Source: a virus. From it: a stretch of DNA of 64,000 nucleotides. Each line of letters begins with the position of its first letter. Positions within the stretch are counted from its first letter, which is position 1. The position numbers and the translations under genes were made by a program. Under the pieces are notes generated by a model, which was not told the origin of the DNA, made no database searches, and saw nothing but the letters and a program-made list of their open reading frames with translations. The DNA is taken from IMG/VR virus record IMGVR_UViG_3300047994_000162, positions 1 to 64,000 of that record. One strand, given 5' to 3'. This document shows, piece by piece, positions 49,994 to 61,658 of this stretch.

Positions 49994-51556
49994 TTAATTC
50001 GTGTGCGCGTGGCCGTTCAATTTCCCGTTCGCCTTGGCGCCCAAGATCGGGCTTTTCTCCATCATGTGCACCAGATCGAGCAACTCGGTGTCGTCCATCT
50101 TTCGCATCCGGCGCCGCCGCGCGGTGGCGGTGTCCGCCTTGGCGAGGTTCGGCTTGGGCTCGGCCGGCTCGCCTGGCGTCATCATCGGCTGGGGCGGCTC
50201 GTAGGTCGCGATCGCCTCGATGTCGAGGTTGAGCGGGCTTTGGAACATCATCTTGTTCTCGTTGATGTTGTCCTGTGCCCACGACATCAGCGTCGCCTTG
50301 TTTTCCGGGTCCATCATGGGCCCGAAGATCTCGACGGCCTCCAGAATGGCCTCCAGCTTGACCTTGTCGGTTTCGACCTTGTCGCTATCGGGCTCGGTCA
50401 GCAGCGACGGCCATTGCGGGTTGAACGAGTTTTGCCATTTGTAGAACGCCTGATCGTAGGTCATGGCGGCGTATTCCGGGACGTCGGCCTTGAGGCTTTC
50501 GAAGAACTCCGGGTTCCACGCGCGGCGCATCACGATGTTGTCCATGAAGCGGTAGGCCGGGCTAAGCTGGCGCCGGGTGCGATCGACCCAGCGCGCGACT
50601 TTCTTGGCGTCCTCGGTGCCCTCGCCGAAGCCTTCGACGAACGTCTCGTCTTTCAGAACCACCGCCGGCATGTCGCCCGCGATCGCGATGTTGTCGAGGA
50701 TATCGTTGCGCGCCATGCCGAACGCCTTGTCGATGTTCTGCATGTTGAGGGTTTCGATCTTTTCGTCCGGCCCGATCGAGATCACGTTCCCGTTGGTGGC
50801 CTCCTTGACGAACAGCCGCTTGAGGCCGGCGCTGGCCTGCATGATCGCGTCGATGATGGCGCCCGCGGTCTTGAGCGTCGCGATGAACACGCCGGCTTTC
50901 TTGACCACCAGATCGTCGGTGACCATCGTCTGAATGTAGGATTTCAGCGGAAAGAGGGCGCGCTGGAAAACAGACCGGCCGACGAACCCGAATGCCGATG
51001 CCGTGTAAGCGATATAGACCGGACGCTCGTGCATCAGCGTCACGGTGCGGCTGCGGTGGAACGCCTTGCCGCTGACCGCGATCGTGGTGACCTTTTGGAA
51101 GTCGATGGACAGCGGGTCTTGATTCAGCACGATGCTGCCGGCGGTGTTCAGCGGATCATAGACCGAGAACGAAATCTTAAGGTCCGCCAGCTTTTTCCAA
51201 TCGATCGAATCGTTCGGCTCAAGTCCATCGACCATCAGCGCCAGCGTCGCGACCCCGTAGGCCCGCGACACGGAGGCGAAATTCAGGATGATGTCGTCGG
51301 CGCCGATGCGCTCCCATTCATCGCGGAATTGCTTGCTGATGCGTTCCTCGCCAGGCCCCGGGACGGCGATCTCGCGCTCCTGCGATTGCGCCATTTCGAT
51401 CGGGGACTGGACCATCTTGTTGCCCAGCGGATGGTAGAGCCAAATCGTCTTACACAATTCGTAGGACGGCTGATCGCCGGGCATGATTTCGGGAGCCTCA
51501 AGAAGCTCCGTCAGCGTATTGCCGAGCGAACTGCCGTTGACGACGATCGAGCCCAT
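49994..51556 (-). CDS. portal protein (DUF1073-like)
   Basis: 520 residues with the DUF1073 portal pattern: TIWLYHPLGNKMVQSPIEMAQSQEREI, SISFSVYDPLN..., DEKIETLNMQNIDKAFGMARNDILDNIAIAGDMPAVVLKDE. It lies between a small gene after the large terminase and the head morphogenesis protein, the normal portal position. The C-terminus is Arg-rich and helical. Confidence 0.8.
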   Translation of the reverse strand: MGSIVVNGSSLGNTLTELLEAPEIMPGDQPSYELCKTIWLYHPLGNKMVQSPIEMAQSQEREIAVPGPGEERISKQFRDEWERIGADDIILNFASVSRAYGVATLALMVDGLEPNDSIDWKKLADLKISFSVYDPLNTAGSIVLNQDPLSIDFQKVTTIAVSGKAFHRSRTVTLMHERPVYIAYTASAFGFVGRSVFQRALFPLKSYIQTMVTDDLVVKKAGVFIATLKTAGAIIDAIMQASAGLKRLFVKEATNGNVISIGPDEKIETLNMQNIDKAFGMARNDILDNIAIAGDMPAVVLKDETFVEGFGEGTEDAKKVARWVDRTRRQLSPAYRFMDNIVMRRAWNPEFFESLKADVPEYAAMTYDQAFYKWQNSFNPQWPSLLTEPDSDKVETDKVKLEAILEAVEIFGPMMDPENKATLMSWAQDNINENKMMFQSPLNLDIEAIATYEPPQPMMTPGEPAEPKPNLAKADTATARRRRMRKMDDTELLDLVHMMEKSPILGAKANGKLNGHAHTN

Positions 51557-52029: not shown

Positions 52030-53379
52030 CTAGAAACCCTCGGAGTTGCCCAGCGCGATCGCGGCGCCATAGGTGGCGCAATCGAGCAAATCGTCCTGAC
52101 GCTTGCGGGCGTCTTTATCGCCGATCTTGAAGCCGACGACCTGTGATCGGAAGTGATTCAGGGTTTTCCCCTTGTAGTTTTTGGTCTTGGTGAACGCCTG
52201 GCGGCTGATCTTGACCAGCCCACGGTAGAAATAGCCCGACACCGAGATCGCGCGTTCGTCCTTGCCCATGGCGGTCAGCTTCGAATCGATCGGGAACACC
52301 CGAAGCCCGCGGTTCTTGGCCTGCTGGAGCAAGATGGTGCCCGACGACTTGTCCTCGATGAAGGCGCCCAGAAAGCCTTTCGACGCCTTGCACTGGATTG
52401 CGGCGTCGGTCCCGATATCGAACACCCCGGGCAACCACGTTTCCAGCATGGCGCCCTCGATCTGGACGACGTCCCAATCCAGAATGACCAGCCGATGCGC
52501 CGGCCCCAGCAGGCCGTTCGCCCCGACCGGGCGGATATTGTTCCGAATCAGCGCCCACCAGACAACGCCGGTGCCGTCATTCAGCGTCCCGGTCTTGGAC
52601 GCCGAATCGATGGTCGCGAAGATTGCCTCGCACCGGAGCGGCCATTCGACCGGGTTGCCATCCTGAAGCATCTTGTCGAGGGCGAAGAATTGGGCGCCGG
52701 ACCAGTCGACGAAGTCGGCCAGATACTCCTGCTGATAGACCAGCGGTTCGTTGTCGCGCTCGAATGCCGCGACCTCGTCAGCCGGCAGGAACGGGTTCGA
52801 TCGGCTGGGCGCGTGGAATTGGACAAAGCCATGCTTCACGTCGTGGCAAATCTCATAAAGGAAGTTCTCGGGGTCGATGCCGGCGGTGTTCGACATCATC
52901 AGCGCGCGGCCACGGTAGTCGACCAGCGTGGGGCGCGCCGATCGCTTCCACCAGTTGATCGTGTTCGGCTTCGTGAACGCCACCTCGTCGCCGATGATCC
53001 GGTGATACTTTCGGGACCGGCCAGCGTTTTCATCCTCCAGCGACCAGAACTCGACGGCGCCGCCGGTGATGGTGCGGATCATGCCCCGCGTCTTGTCCGA
53101 TGATTTCACGATCGGGTGCAACGCCTCCCGGATGACCTGATACGATTCGGACAGTCGCTTGTTCTCGGGCGCGAACCAGCCGACCAGCCGACCATGGCTG
53201 GCATCGTCAATCGCGACGCCCTCGCCCAGGACGTTCTTGCCGAACCGGCGCCCGCACCGCGCGGCCACGAATCGGGTTTGCGACATCAGCCATCGCAGCT
53301 TCGCTTGCGCCTTGTGATACTCGGGCAGCGCGACGGTCGCTCTGGCGTAATTCGGCTGGAGGGGCGAGATCGCGTTCAT
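52030..53379 (-). CDS. terL: terminase large subunit
   Basis: 449 residues. ATPase: Walker A-like ARCGRRFGKNVLGE and Walker B HRIIGDEVAF. Nuclease part: FATIDSASKTGTLNDGTGVVWWALIR, GAFIEDKSSGTILLQQ and RKRQDDLLDCATYG, giving the acidic triad of RNase H-like terminases. In the P-loop Asn replaces the usual Ser/Thr after Lys, which is unusual because that hydroxyl helps hold magnesium. Located after the small-terminase-like gene. Confidence 0.85.
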   Translation of the reverse strand: MNAISPLQPNYARATVALPEYHKAQAKLRWLMSQTRFVAARCGRRFGKNVLGEGVAIDDASHGRLVGWFAPENKRLSESYQVIREALHPIVKSSDKTRGMIRTITGGAVEFWSLEDENAGRSRKYHRIIGDEVAFTKPNTINWWKRSARPTLVDYRGRALMMSNTAGIDPENFLYEICHDVKHGFVQFHAPSRSNPFLPADEVAAFERDNEPLVYQQEYLADFVDWSGAQFFALDKMLQDGNPVEWPLRCEAIFATIDSASKTGTLNDGTGVVWWALIRNNIRPVGANGLLGPAHRLVILDWDVVQIEGAMLETWLPGVFDIGTDAAIQCKASKGFLGAFIEDKSSGTILLQQAKNRGLRVFPIDSKLTAMGKDERAISVSGYFYRGLVKISRQAFTKTKNYKGKTLNHFRSQVVGFKIGDKDARKRQDDLLDCATYGAAIALGNSEGF

Positions 53380-58477: not shown

Positions 58478-58714
58478 ATGCCGAAGCCAGCCCAAATCAA
58501 CCGCCGCAAAGCTAACACTTTTACGGTCGAATTTGTCACCCTCAATTCGGCGTTCGATGAAGAGCCGCATTTCGAGATCGCGCGCATTCTTCGCGATATC
58601 GCCGACAAGATCACAGTCGGAATTTTCTCGTCACCTATCAGCGCCTCAAACGGCAACAGGGTCGGGAAATTCGAGTGCCGCGACAACAATGGTCTGGCGT
58701 TCGAGCGATTCTAA
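58478..58714 (+). CDS. hypothetical protein (78 aa)
   Basis: FTVEFVTLNSAFDEEPHFEIARILRDIADKITVGIFSSPISASNGNRVGKFE resembles a small phage family without known function. Ends convergently with the PLP-enzyme gene (4-base overlap). Confidence 0.6.
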   Translation: MPKPAQINRRKANTFTVEFVTLNSAFDEEPHFEIARILRDIADKITVGIFSSPISASNGNRVGKFECRDNNGLAFERF

Positions 58715-59406
58715 GCCGGCCCGGTAACATTCCAGAACAGCACGCGGCCCGCCCCATGGCAGGCCTTTGCTATTTCCCACGCCTTTGCATCGTAGTGGCG
58801 ATCGCTGGGGAACGGTACCTCGCCCTTGAACGGTTTGGCGAACGGCAGCGCGGCGATGTGGATTTGCGCGCCCGCGACGTCGGCCGGCGCCAGCTCCCGG
58901 CCGACTTGCACCACATGCCGGCGGGCTTTCGGCCAGGCGGTCGCCAGCGCGCGCGCCAGCACGCCGGACCCGGATGCACACCAGACCTCGTCCGGCTCGA
59001 TCTTGAGGCTGCTGGCGGCCTTGGCGATGGCCGCTATGGCTTCGGGCATGTCGGCGCCGAATGGCATCAGCCGGGCGCCGCTGGCCTCGCAATATGCCTT
59101 GGCGCGGGCTTGAACGACAGTCAGGTATCCGGGGCTGACCATACAGACCCGGGCGCCCAATTCCTTCGCCAGCAGGGCGCGTGGGTGCGGCTCGGCCCGC
59201 TGGGCCACAAAGATCGTCGCCCGCTTGCCAAGGCCCTTGGCGACGGCTGCCAGGGCCGTCTGGGCACCACCTTCGGCCGGGCTGGCATAGACGACCTCAT
59301 CCGCGCCATCGAACAGGGTTCCGAGGAACCGGGCTTTCGTGCCGCCCGGGAACAGATCGTCCCGCACCACCGTGATGCCGTCATGCTCGGATGTTTTCGG
59401 TTTCAC
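58711..59406 (-). CDS. PLP-dependent (TrpB/ACC-deaminase fold) enzyme
   Basis: 231 residues from GTG 59406, overlapping the methyltransferase stop (GTGA). FPGGTKARFLGTLF near the start has the GGxKxR arrangement in which Lys (K24) holds PLP in fold-type II enzymes; EVVYASPAEGGAQTALAAVAKGLG and VWCASGSGVLARAL are further fold-II-like elements. Phage PLP enzymes act in some thymidine hypermodification pathways. Its coupling to a DNA methyltransferase and a ParB-like gene suggests it modifies a DNA base; substrate unknown. Shorter than typical fold-II enzymes (~300 aa). Confidence 0.7.
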   Translation of the reverse strand: MKPKTSEHDGITVVRDDLFPGGTKARFLGTLFDGADEVVYASPAEGGAQTALAAVAKGLGKRATIFVAQRAEPHPRALLAKELGARVCMVSPGYLTVVQARAKAYCEASGARLMPFGADMPEAIAAIAKAASSLKIEPDEVWCASGSGVLARALATAWPKARRHVVQVGRELAPADVAGAQIHIAALPFAKPFKGEVPFPSDRHYDAKAWEIAKACHGAGRVLFWNVTGPA

Positions 59407-60500
59407 AGGATCTTCCCGTAGGCCTCCAGATCGGGCGAGCCAGGCGCCGGGGCTGGCTTTGATCCGGCCGGCGTCGCCGATTCGTCGATGATGGCGGCGA
59501 ACTCGACGGGCCCGATTTCCCGGGTTGCTTTGACCGGGTCGCCCTTGACGAAGATCAGCACGTTTTGGTGGCTTTTGCCCAGCTTGCGGGACGCCTCGAA
59601 CTGCTTTCCGGCGCGCATCGCCAGCGAACCGGCGGCCGTGACCAAGATCGCTTCGTTGTAGAGCCGCATCCCGCATGCCTCGAACGCCATCGCGCAGCGC
59701 CCCGGCAAATTGACGTACAGGCCCTTTTCGTCCCGGACGTCGCCGATCACCCAGCCGGCGAAACGATTGTTCTTTAGCCGCGCGCAGGCAGCCCGGATGA
59801 TCGCCTCCTGGGCGGTGAAGAAATCCTCGGCGCCGAGCGTCGACAGATCGCGCTTGTCCTCGGAATAGACCTCCAGATTCCAATACGGCGGGCACGAAAA
59901 CACGAAATCGAATTGCGCGCCCTTCGGCACCAGCGACTCGATGTTGCGGCTATCACCCTCGATCCATTTCGGGAGCGGGGCTTTGCAGATTTTCAACTGA
60001 GACCGATTCGCCACCAGTTGCTCGGCGCGAAGGTCGATGCCGGTGTAATGCCGCCCCAGATGCGACGCCACGATGCCGCGCACCGAGCCGCCAGCGAACG
60101 GGTCCAAGATGCTGCCGCCCGGCGGACAGAACCAGCGATAGCAAAGCTCGGTCAGCACCGGATCGAATATCGATGTGCCGGTCTGGCCGGCCGACATGCC
60201 ACCATCGATCTCGCCGGCAGCGATCTTTTCCTGCACCCATTGCTGAGTGCCGACGGCGAGGCCACGGCCGCGCGTGTATGCCGTCTTGCCGGTGTTGCCG
60301 CCGCCCTTCTTGGGCGTCGCGTCTGCGGCTTTCTTTTTCTTGCGGTATGGGTCGGTGGTGGTGCGAAGCGCCAGCCCGCCGCGCAGATCCTCGGTGTGGC
60401 CGGCAGTCTTGGTCAGTGTCTTTTTGCCGTTGCCCACCACGTGCTCCCCGCGCATCAAATCCTGCCCGAATGTCCGGGCGTTCGGTTTCTTTTTCCTCAT
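59403..60500 (-). CDS. DNA methyltransferase (gamma-like order, CPPY)
   Basis: 365 residues. Motif I-like SILDPFAGGSVRG (130-142), IDLRAEQLVAN, WIEGDSRNI, and motif IV FVFSCPPYWNLEVYSEDKRDLS (200-220) with CPPY rather than D/N/SPPY. Order I before IV. The N-terminal 75 residues are basic and flexible. Probably transfers to an exocyclic amino group, or acts as part of a base-modification pathway. Starts in an ATGA overlap after the ParB-like gene. Confidence 0.8.
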   Translation of the reverse strand: MRKKKPNARTFGQDLMRGEHVVGNGKKTLTKTAGHTEDLRGGLALRTTTDPYRKKKKAADATPKKGGGNTGKTAYTRGRGLAVGTQQWVQEKIAAGEIDGGMSAGQTGTSIFDPVLTELCYRWFCPPGGSILDPFAGGSVRGIVASHLGRHYTGIDLRAEQLVANRSQLKICKAPLPKWIEGDSRNIESLVPKGAQFDFVFSCPPYWNLEVYSEDKRDLSTLGAEDFFTAQEAIIRAACARLKNNRFAGWVIGDVRDEKGLYVNLPGRCAMAFEACGMRLYNEAILVTAAGSLAMRAGKQFEASRKLGKSHQNVLIFVKGDPVKATREIGPVEFAAIIDESATPAGSKPAPAPGSPDLEAYGKIL

Positions 60501-61165
60501 GCCGTGGCCGCCTTCTTGGCCGCGCGCTTGACCGGGTCGGGCTCCAGCATCGTCTCCGACATCTTGAGCAGATTTTCACCGCGGCCGAGTTCGGATTGAA
60601 TGCCCAGCGCCAGCCAGGCGCGCTTGCGATCTTGCCACCAGCCCTCGCGCGCATTCAGCACCGTGAACGGCGCGATGCCGAAGCGTTCCGCCAGATTGCC
60701 GAGCGTCTGTTCTCGGGCGGCGCCGGCCGCGCCGGCCGATGCGACGAACATCACCAGATCGGATGAATTGAAGCCCGCCAGTTCGAGCGGATATTCCAGT
60801 TGTTTCAATTCGGTCAGGCCCGTCAGTCTCAGGCTTTCGTCCCAACCGCCGAGTTCGAACGATCGATTGTCGGAAAACACCAGCGCCAGCTTTTGCGCGT
60901 CCGTCAGGCCACGGATCACCACGACCGGGACTTCCTCGAGTCCGACGCGCTCCGCGGACAGCGTGGCGCCGTGGCCGGCCAGGATCATATCGGCGTCGTC
61001 GATCAGCACCGGCCGCGTGAATCCGAACTCGCGAATCATGGCCGCGACGGCAACGATCTGGGCCTCGGGGTGTGTCTTGGGATTTTTGGGATGTGGCCGC
61101 AGATCGCGGATTTTTCGCCGCTCGGTCTTGTCCGCAGCGAACGCCAGTTTCGCGCCTTTAGCCAT
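60497..61165 (-). CDS. ParB/sulfiredoxin-fold protein, methyltransferase-associated
   Basis: 222 residues. Residues 15-95: RKIRDLRPHPKNPKTHPEAQIVAVAAMIREFGFTRPVLIDDADMILAGHGATLSAERVGLEEVPVVVI, a ParB N-terminal nuclease/CTPase-like domain (GHGxxxxA). The central HTH and dimer domain of chromosomal ParB are missing, so it is unlikely to bind the parS-like sites itself. C-terminus basic. Such proteins occur with methyltransferase genes in phages. A HNH gene overlaps its start by eight bases. Confidence 0.78.
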   Translation of the reverse strand: MAKGAKLAFAADKTERRKIRDLRPHPKNPKTHPEAQIVAVAAMIREFGFTRPVLIDDADMILAGHGATLSAERVGLEEVPVVVIRGLTDAQKLALVFSDNRSFELGGWDESLRLTGLTELKQLEYPLELAGFNSSDLVMFVASAGAAGAAREQTLGNLAERFGIAPFTVLNAREGWWQDRKRAWLALGIQSELGRGENLLKMSETMLEPDPVKRAAKKAATA

Positions 61166-61658
61166 TCAATCCTCCCCGTTTGCACGGCATATCGACGAAT
61201 CGTCGACCACCTCCGTCTATGCGCCTTATGTAGCGAGATGCGCTGGCCGCGCTGATCCCCAATTGCGCGCCGATGTCTACGAGGAGTTTGGTGCCAGCCA
61301 TCTCCCGGGTAGCGCGAACAACCTCATCGCTTATGACGCAAGAAAGGCGCCCCTTCATGCCGGCATCGATAGCATTGTCCTTTTTCGTGCCCTCGAACAG
61401 ATGCCACGGATTGCAGCACGGCGGATTATCGCATTCGTGACACGAACACATGCCGGCCAGCAAACGTCGACCGAGTCGTTGCTCTAAGGCAAAAATATGA
61501 GATCGAACAACGCGGCGTCCCGAGCCAGCGTTGAATATCCCGTACTCTCCAGTCTTGCCGGCGGTCCAAGGCCAGCACTCATCGGGAGCGCCGATTTGAA
61601 CCTTTTCCCAAAACCGCTCAACCGCGTCTCGTTTTCTCAATGTGGTTGCTCCCCGCAA
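61158..61658 (-). CDS. HNH homing endonuclease
   Basis: 166 residues: CWPWTAGKTGEYGIFNAG, SHIFALEQRLGRRLLAGMCSCHECDNPPCCNPWHLFEGTKKDN, ending in GAQLGISAASASRYIRR, a helix-turn-helix. This is the HNH_3 pattern with several zinc Cys. Located between the ParB-like gene and a chimeric gene. Confidence 0.82.
   Translation of the reverse strand: MRGATTLRKRDAVERFWEKVQIGAPDECWPWTAGKTGEYGIFNAGSGRRVVRSHIFALEQRLGRRLLAGMCSCHECDNPPCCNPWHLFEGTKKDNAIDAGMKGRLSCVISDEVVRATREMAGTKLLVDIGAQLGISAASASRYIRRIDGGGRRFVDMPCKRGGLNG

Follow-up and report, generated by a model that had tools for sequence, protein, structure and literature searches.

A viral operon that pairs a CPPY-motif transferase with a PLP enzyme, and its sister clade linked to S-adenosylmethionine decarboxylase: candidate cassettes for DNA modification

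Introduction

In the thymidine hypermodification of phages M6 and ViI, PLP enzymes help to place amine-bearing groups on DNA. This pathway starts from 5-hydroxymethyl-dU, which is made by a homologue of thymidylate synthase, and its transferases are of other kinds than the one described here. Another described system, CmoA/CmoX/CmoY of phage S-B43, makes 5-carboxymethylcytosine from a Cx-SAM donor (PMC12783734). Phages also encode fusions of ParB to methyltransferases (phrog_498), which have been treated as m6A/m4C methyltransferases (PMC6536676, PMC12704722), and genes for DNA modification are known to occur at this locus, between ParB and TerL, in phages (PMC6536676). Phage AdoMet decarboxylases, in turn, are treated as polyamine enzymes (PMC9992855, PMC10407285), and neither "methyltransferase" nor "ParB" appears in the text of PMC9992855. 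In the literature that we searched, which did not extend to Iyer et al. 2013 on DNA-modification loci, we found no description of a PLP enzyme or of S-adenosylmethionine decarboxylase (SpeD) coupled with ParB and phage DNA modification.

Results

Record IMGVR_UViG_3300047994_000162 is a virus contig of 68,535 bases and is possibly a fragment; the window, which is the whole stretch of DNA that we analyzed, is its first 64,000 nucleotides. Three genes lie on the minus strand in the order ParB-like, CPPY methyltransferase, PLP enzyme: a ParB/Srx-like protein of 222 amino acids (60497..61165, from the open reading frame and PHROG profile matches), a CPPY-family SAM-dependent DNA methyltransferase-like enzyme of 365 amino acids (59403..60500, from Pfam and PHROG profiles and motifs), and a fold-type II PLP enzyme of 231 amino acids, of the phrog_7093 type and with a GTG start (58711..59406, from profiles and a model). 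Both junctions are stop/start overlaps of 4 bp, ATGA between the ParB-like and methyltransferase genes (60497..60500, minus strand) and GTGA between the methyltransferase and PLP genes (59403..59406, minus strand), so the three genes form one operon, as a preliminary description of the window had proposed. Directly upstream is a gene for an HNH endonuclease (61158-61658), which overlaps the start of the ParB-like gene by 8 bases.

The three genes come first, and about 5 kb separates them from the next packaging gene, the terminase large subunit (52030..53379, minus strand); the portal gene (49994..51556) is on the same strand as well. Thus, a ParB-like gene and a modification gene lie upstream of the terminase large subunit gene, and the operon is in a ParB-terminase region. 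The preliminary description noticed no hydroxymethyl-pyrimidine synthase, and we likewise found no member of the thymidylate synthase family (PF00303) in the 68.5-kb record, which may be incomplete. The parallel that it drew with thymidine hypermodification is weak, because the record lacks the thymidylate synthase homologue of that pathway and because the CPPY family, of which the methyltransferase is a member, is a separate one.

The PLP enzyme

The PLP protein scores 39.6 bits with PF00291 (PALP), for which the cut-off is 35, and it is matched over its full length by phrog_7093 ("threonine dehydratase"; E = 1.8e-55). An AlphaFold model built from an alignment with 34 viral relatives had a pLDDT of 96.8. 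When the model was compared with the PDB by Foldseek, the nearest structure was D-cysteine desulfhydrase from Salmonella (4d99, E = 4.9e-13), and a homologue of ACC deaminase was also found (1j0a, TMq = 0.78). The predicted structure thus confirms a fold-type II enzyme with the tryptophan-synthase-beta fold, which is the assignment that was made at the outset. Searching the PDB sequences with a profile of the family gave only chance-level matches; the fold and the mapping of residues are based on the model and on a multiple alignment.

Alignment with E. coli DcyD shows that the PLP protein has kept the Schiff-base lysine of RDD..GGxK, a phosphate loop rich in glycine, and a tyrosine. The lysine is Lys24 (GGTK; codon at 59335..59337, minus strand), which aligns with Lys51 of DcyD, and the tyrosine is in YDAK (residues 205-208; 58783..58794, minus strand), which aligns with the catalytic-Tyr motif VYTGK of DcyD and ACC deaminase. 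The lysine is kept in all 88 relatives (in one of them the motif reads GSTK, which our search pattern overlooked), Tyr-Asp-x-Lys is kept in 87 of the 88, and G146-S147-G148 of the phosphate loop is invariant.

The protein therefore shares its fold, its active-site lysine and tyrosine, and its phosphate loop with D-cysteine desulfhydrase and ACC deaminase (4d99, 1j0a), but it differs from them in three ways. It is shorter (231 amino acids versus about 330); it is viral only and is tied to a DNA transferase; and where these enzymes have a Ser-Asn-(His/Gln) loop (Ser-Asn-His in DcyD, where it binds the carboxylate of the substrate), it has Gly-Gly-Ala-Gln. Because of this replacement, the enzyme may act on something other than a free alpha-amino acid, or the carboxylate may be held in another way. 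We considered whether the PLP gene might be a host housekeeping gene and rejected this: the family was absent from the 384 other sampled GTDB genomes of the class, and the sole class-wide match was the centre genome's own prophage-type copy. Truncated remnants of the PLP gene in two genomes (L429 and L430) suggest that the cassette decays in old prophages.

The transferase and the ParB-like protein

The methyltransferase-like protein matches PF01555 at 44.3 bits (cut-off 26.7). It is an amino-methyltransferase-type protein, in which motif I (DPFAGGSVRG, the SAM pocket; 60075..60104, minus strand) precedes motif IV (CPPY, within SCPPYW; 59883..59894, minus strand), in keeping with the earlier label of CPPY-type methyltransferase. 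Motif IV reads CPPY rather than the (D/N/S)PP(Y/F/W) by which N6-adenine and N4-cytosine methyltransferases are recognized. CPPY was invariant in 67 relatives that we located via the PLP gene, without using the motif; in a wider set it was present in 227 of 230, which is not an independent count, since CPPY was part of the search pattern. Among solved structures, its closest relatives are amino-methyltransferases. A partner gene is lacking for many close CPPY relatives, which are followed directly by terminase genes, and this makes ordinary methylation a possible core reaction.

The third protein is ParB-like, as first described, but distant, and it is not a canonical ParB (CTPase) by profile or by its Box-II residue. 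Its score against PF02195 was 19.3 bits, below the cut-off of 26.3, while phage ParB families match it strongly (phrog_15396, E = 2.9e-50). The arginine of Box II, which is present in most relatives, is an alanine here (GHGA), and in other proteins the change from arginine to alanine abolishes nucleotide binding (PMC12704722). The protein also has a C-terminal block, PPFTVLNAREGWWQDRKRAWLALGIQSELGRG, that is common to the ParB-methyltransferase fusions.

Those fusions are of the same CPPY family by their PHROG match (phrog_498), and they likewise have a ParB-like N-terminal partner and lie upstream of terminase genes; their treatment as m6A/m4C methyltransferases (PMC6536676, PMC12704722) differs from our reading below. 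The CmoA/CmoX/CmoY system resembles the proposed cassette in that it combines a SAM-derived donor with an extra tailoring enzyme, often near ParB. However, CmoX is a homologue of C5-cytosine methyltransferases with an SPPC motif, whereas the transferase studied here is of the amino-methyltransferase type, and the tailoring is done by an amide ligase instead of a PLP enzyme (PMC12783734).

Pairing, co-evolution, and fusions

The three genes recur together in about 80 viral contigs, as a survey of co-occurrence of the kind suggested in the preliminary description showed. Among the best 80 IMG/VR relatives of the PLP protein, 78 had the transferase beside the PLP gene; the other two (L028 and L043) are on contigs that start about 120 bases before the PLP gene. 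The order was ParB, transferase, PLP in almost all of the 78, and in L066 and L071 the genes are close by but on opposite strands. The exact spacing between the methyltransferase stop and the PLP start that is seen in the window was also found in 58 of 90 distinct relatives. Distances among the PLP proteins correlate with distances among the transferases (r = 0.84; 0 of 2,000 permutations). Samples of GTDB families yielded four further full-length and strong PLP matches beside a transferase (L407 to L410, of which L410 has only a partial transferase match); L404 to L406 were found via transferase loci and are not independent evidence of pairing.

In some viruses the two proteins are fused. Five genomes have the PLP domain inside the transferase itself, after motif I and before CPPY: those of Erythrobacter phages R6L and ZS04 and Pseudanabaena phage Pam4, and two from IMG/VR (L396 and L398). 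The annotation published for ORF1 of R6L is that of a methylase that has a CcrM-like domain (PMC5463345). Our model of the fused protein from L398 had a mean pLDDT of 70, with a shallow alignment in the PLP insert, and is too uncertain to give a distance from one active site to the other. In a genome from the family Rhodobacteraceae (L420), a PLP domain of the Pam4 type is instead C-terminal to the transferase, within a single frame of 1,044 residues. Other arrangements were a PLP gene between the ParB and transferase genes (L400) and, in Mycobacterium phage Vincenzo, a gene that overlaps a ParB-transferase gene and encodes a distant member of the Pfam family, named "carboxylate deaminase". 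Microcystis phage Mae-JY30 is likewise of the PLP type. The cassette is thus present in isolated phages and not just in metagenomic contigs. We also considered whether the genes might be neighbors by chance, which is rejected by the recurrence in about 80 contigs and by the fusions.

Two features near the fusions were seen in passing. The frame from L420 (L420:307-3438, minus strand) comprises the end of a ParB, the CPPY transferase, the PLP domain, and an extra domain at the C terminus that looks, by eye, like an amidoligase (FGVEAEM, LHAHIRV, TVEFRHF); this last domain had no match in Pfam, and the PHROG families matched it at no better than E = 0.075. And in R6L and ZS04 a gene resembling phosphoadenosine phosphosulfate reductase (L083:11371-12414 and L084:1-939, respectively) precedes the fused ParB-transferase-PLP gene by a few genes.

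A sister clade linked to SpeD

Two phages, Pseudomonas phage ZRG1 and Croceibacter phage P2559S, have a gene for SpeD that overlaps the end of a transferase gene of the same kind. We surveyed the partners of 394 transferase frames, drawn from both prophages and viral contigs: a PLP gene or domain was adjacent or inserted in 110 (a figure that is inflated, since 80 loci were fetched through PLP), SpeD was the partner in 58, and none had both. For 225 frames there was no known partner, and most of these lie directly before terminase genes. A ParB-CPPY transferase is coupled to SpeD at L092:3353-5198, at L091:4380-6021, and at the 58 loci of the survey. The SpeD proteins retain the processing serine (ESH in 58 of 58), and 54 have the full Ser/His/Cys pattern; like other phage AdoMet decarboxylases, they keep both the processing and the catalytic residues.

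The SpeD-linked transferases form one clade (support 1.0), which is new here, and their SAM pocket is altered. At the motif I positions G138 and R141, 46 of 47 SpeD-linked representatives have D and F (GGxxR becomes GDxxF). D/F was found in 0 of 43 PLP-linked transferases, all 43 of which have G/R, and 128 of 139 partnerless transferases have G/R as well. Because the clade is monophyletic, the pocket changed just once in evolution, and Fisher's test, with its very small P value, overstates the association. The natural reading of these residues, in which Arg141 would bind the carboxylate of SAM, is that the pocket has adapted to decarboxylated SAM, and we predict that SpeD-linked ParB-CPPY transferases use it as their donor.

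Discussion

We think it very probable, from comparative sequence analysis, that the cassette modifies DNA and that its PLP partner is a working enzyme. Given the pairing and the fusions, these viruses probably mark their DNA with a group that is chemically more complex than methyl. The preliminary description had proposed DNA base modification by the PLP-methyltransferase pair, and the pairing, the co-evolution, the fusions, and the ParB-terminase locus all favor this part of it; the chemistry that the pair would carry out is a proposal. The accompanying suggestion of an amino-acid-derived group on DNA was a reasonable one and is strengthened by the SpeD-linked sister clade, with its chemistry likewise conjectured. 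From these patterns we infer DNA as the substrate, the nature of the group, the PLP reaction, and the role of ParB.

Our tentative model, to which we give somewhat less than even weight in full, is a ParB-TerL hypermodification in which the CPPY enzyme transfers the arm of SAM and the PLP enzyme tailors it afterwards. Bringing the CPPY enzyme to DNA is probably the task of the ParB-like protein. With its methyltransferase fold, the CPPY enzyme would flip a base and transfer a group from SAM, and the PLP enzyme would work on that same product, either as a subunit or, if fused, as a domain beside the active site of the transferase. The transferred group would carry an amine, with which PLP would form a Schiff base. 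Since PLP chemistry needs an amine, which a methyl group lacks and the arm of SAM has, we propose that the group is more likely the 3-amino-3-carboxypropyl arm than methyl, with release of methylthioadenosine. The PLP enzyme might then decarboxylate the arm or otherwise alter it at the alpha carbon; we know of no fold-type II PLP decarboxylase. In the SpeD clade, SAM would be decarboxylated first and its aminopropyl arm transferred afterwards, with a similar end.

Other explanations deserve consideration. The CPPY enzyme might be an ordinary N6-adenine or N4-cytosine methyltransferase, with a PLP enzyme that supplies a small product (ammonia, pyruvate, or sulfide) or another precursor for a separate DNA modification step. 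We consider this unlikely, although the match to PF01555, the relationship to solved amino-methyltransferases, and the abundance of bare CPPY enzymes would fit the first half of it, and the second half would suit a PLP fold that is nearest to D-cysteine desulfhydrase, which releases sulfide and ammonia: motif IV has a cysteine in place of D/N/S, the altered pocket of the SpeD clade would go unexplained, and the insertion in the transferase and the near-constant pairing suggest a shared substrate and not a diffusible product. A different possibility is that the PLP enzyme alters SAM itself, as SpeD or CmoA do, and that the transferase uses the new donor. SpeD does fill the same slot in the sister clade, never together with PLP, and Cx-SAM is a precedent in phages (PMC12783734). 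However, the SpeD clade changed its SAM pocket, while the pocket residues of PLP-linked transferases are those of partnerless ones, so this reading is quite improbable, and the product is a likelier substrate for the PLP enzyme than SAM is.

Depletion of SAM would be another use for either partner, since both could consume it: PLP (and SpeD) would counter host restriction or BREX, as SAM lyases do, and the transferase would only mark phage DNA. Phage enzymes that degrade SAM are known counter-defence proteins (PMC7877911). But such a function would not need fusion inside one transferase, or strict operon coupling with it, and it would not explain the match between pocket and partner except as an adaptation to donor supply; we regard it as very unlikely. 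We assign the same low standing to a PLP fold that has lost catalysis and serves to recognize DNA. Alpha-class methyltransferases carry their target-recognition domain between motif I and motif IV, which is where the fused PLP domain sits, and the loop for the substrate carboxylate has been lost. On the other hand, the Schiff-base lysine, the tyrosine, and the GSG of the phosphate loop are kept in essentially all members, and the position of the PLP domain varies (inserted, C-terminal, or in a separate gene before or after), neither of which suits a recognition domain.

If transfer of the SAM arm is correct, then a SAM-arm route would be added to the known phage DNA modifications, and a large family of phage "DNA methyltransferases" would be explained. 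An unexpected role would fall to the phage AdoMet decarboxylases, which have until now been interpreted as polyamine genes, and the cassettes would offer enzymes that write amine handles on DNA. A broader and more doubtful generalization is that the CPPY family as a whole consists of DNA (3-amino-3-carboxypropyl/aminopropyl) transferases and not methyltransferases, with the SpeD clade writing 3-aminopropyl bases and the PLP-linked members tailoring the arm on DNA. If this were true, arm transfer by CPPY enzymes would represent DNA modification chemistry of a new class, spread across a haloarchaeal virus and phages of bacteria from many phyla.

Beyond PLP and SpeD, the only further recurring partner that we saw is a small methyltransferase-like gene, in a few loci. 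It encodes 206 to 213 amino acids with an SPPD or SLPD motif, and it overlaps or abuts the end of the CPPY transferase gene (L399:4775-5395, L401:2073-2699, L090:4826-5467, and L194/L196).
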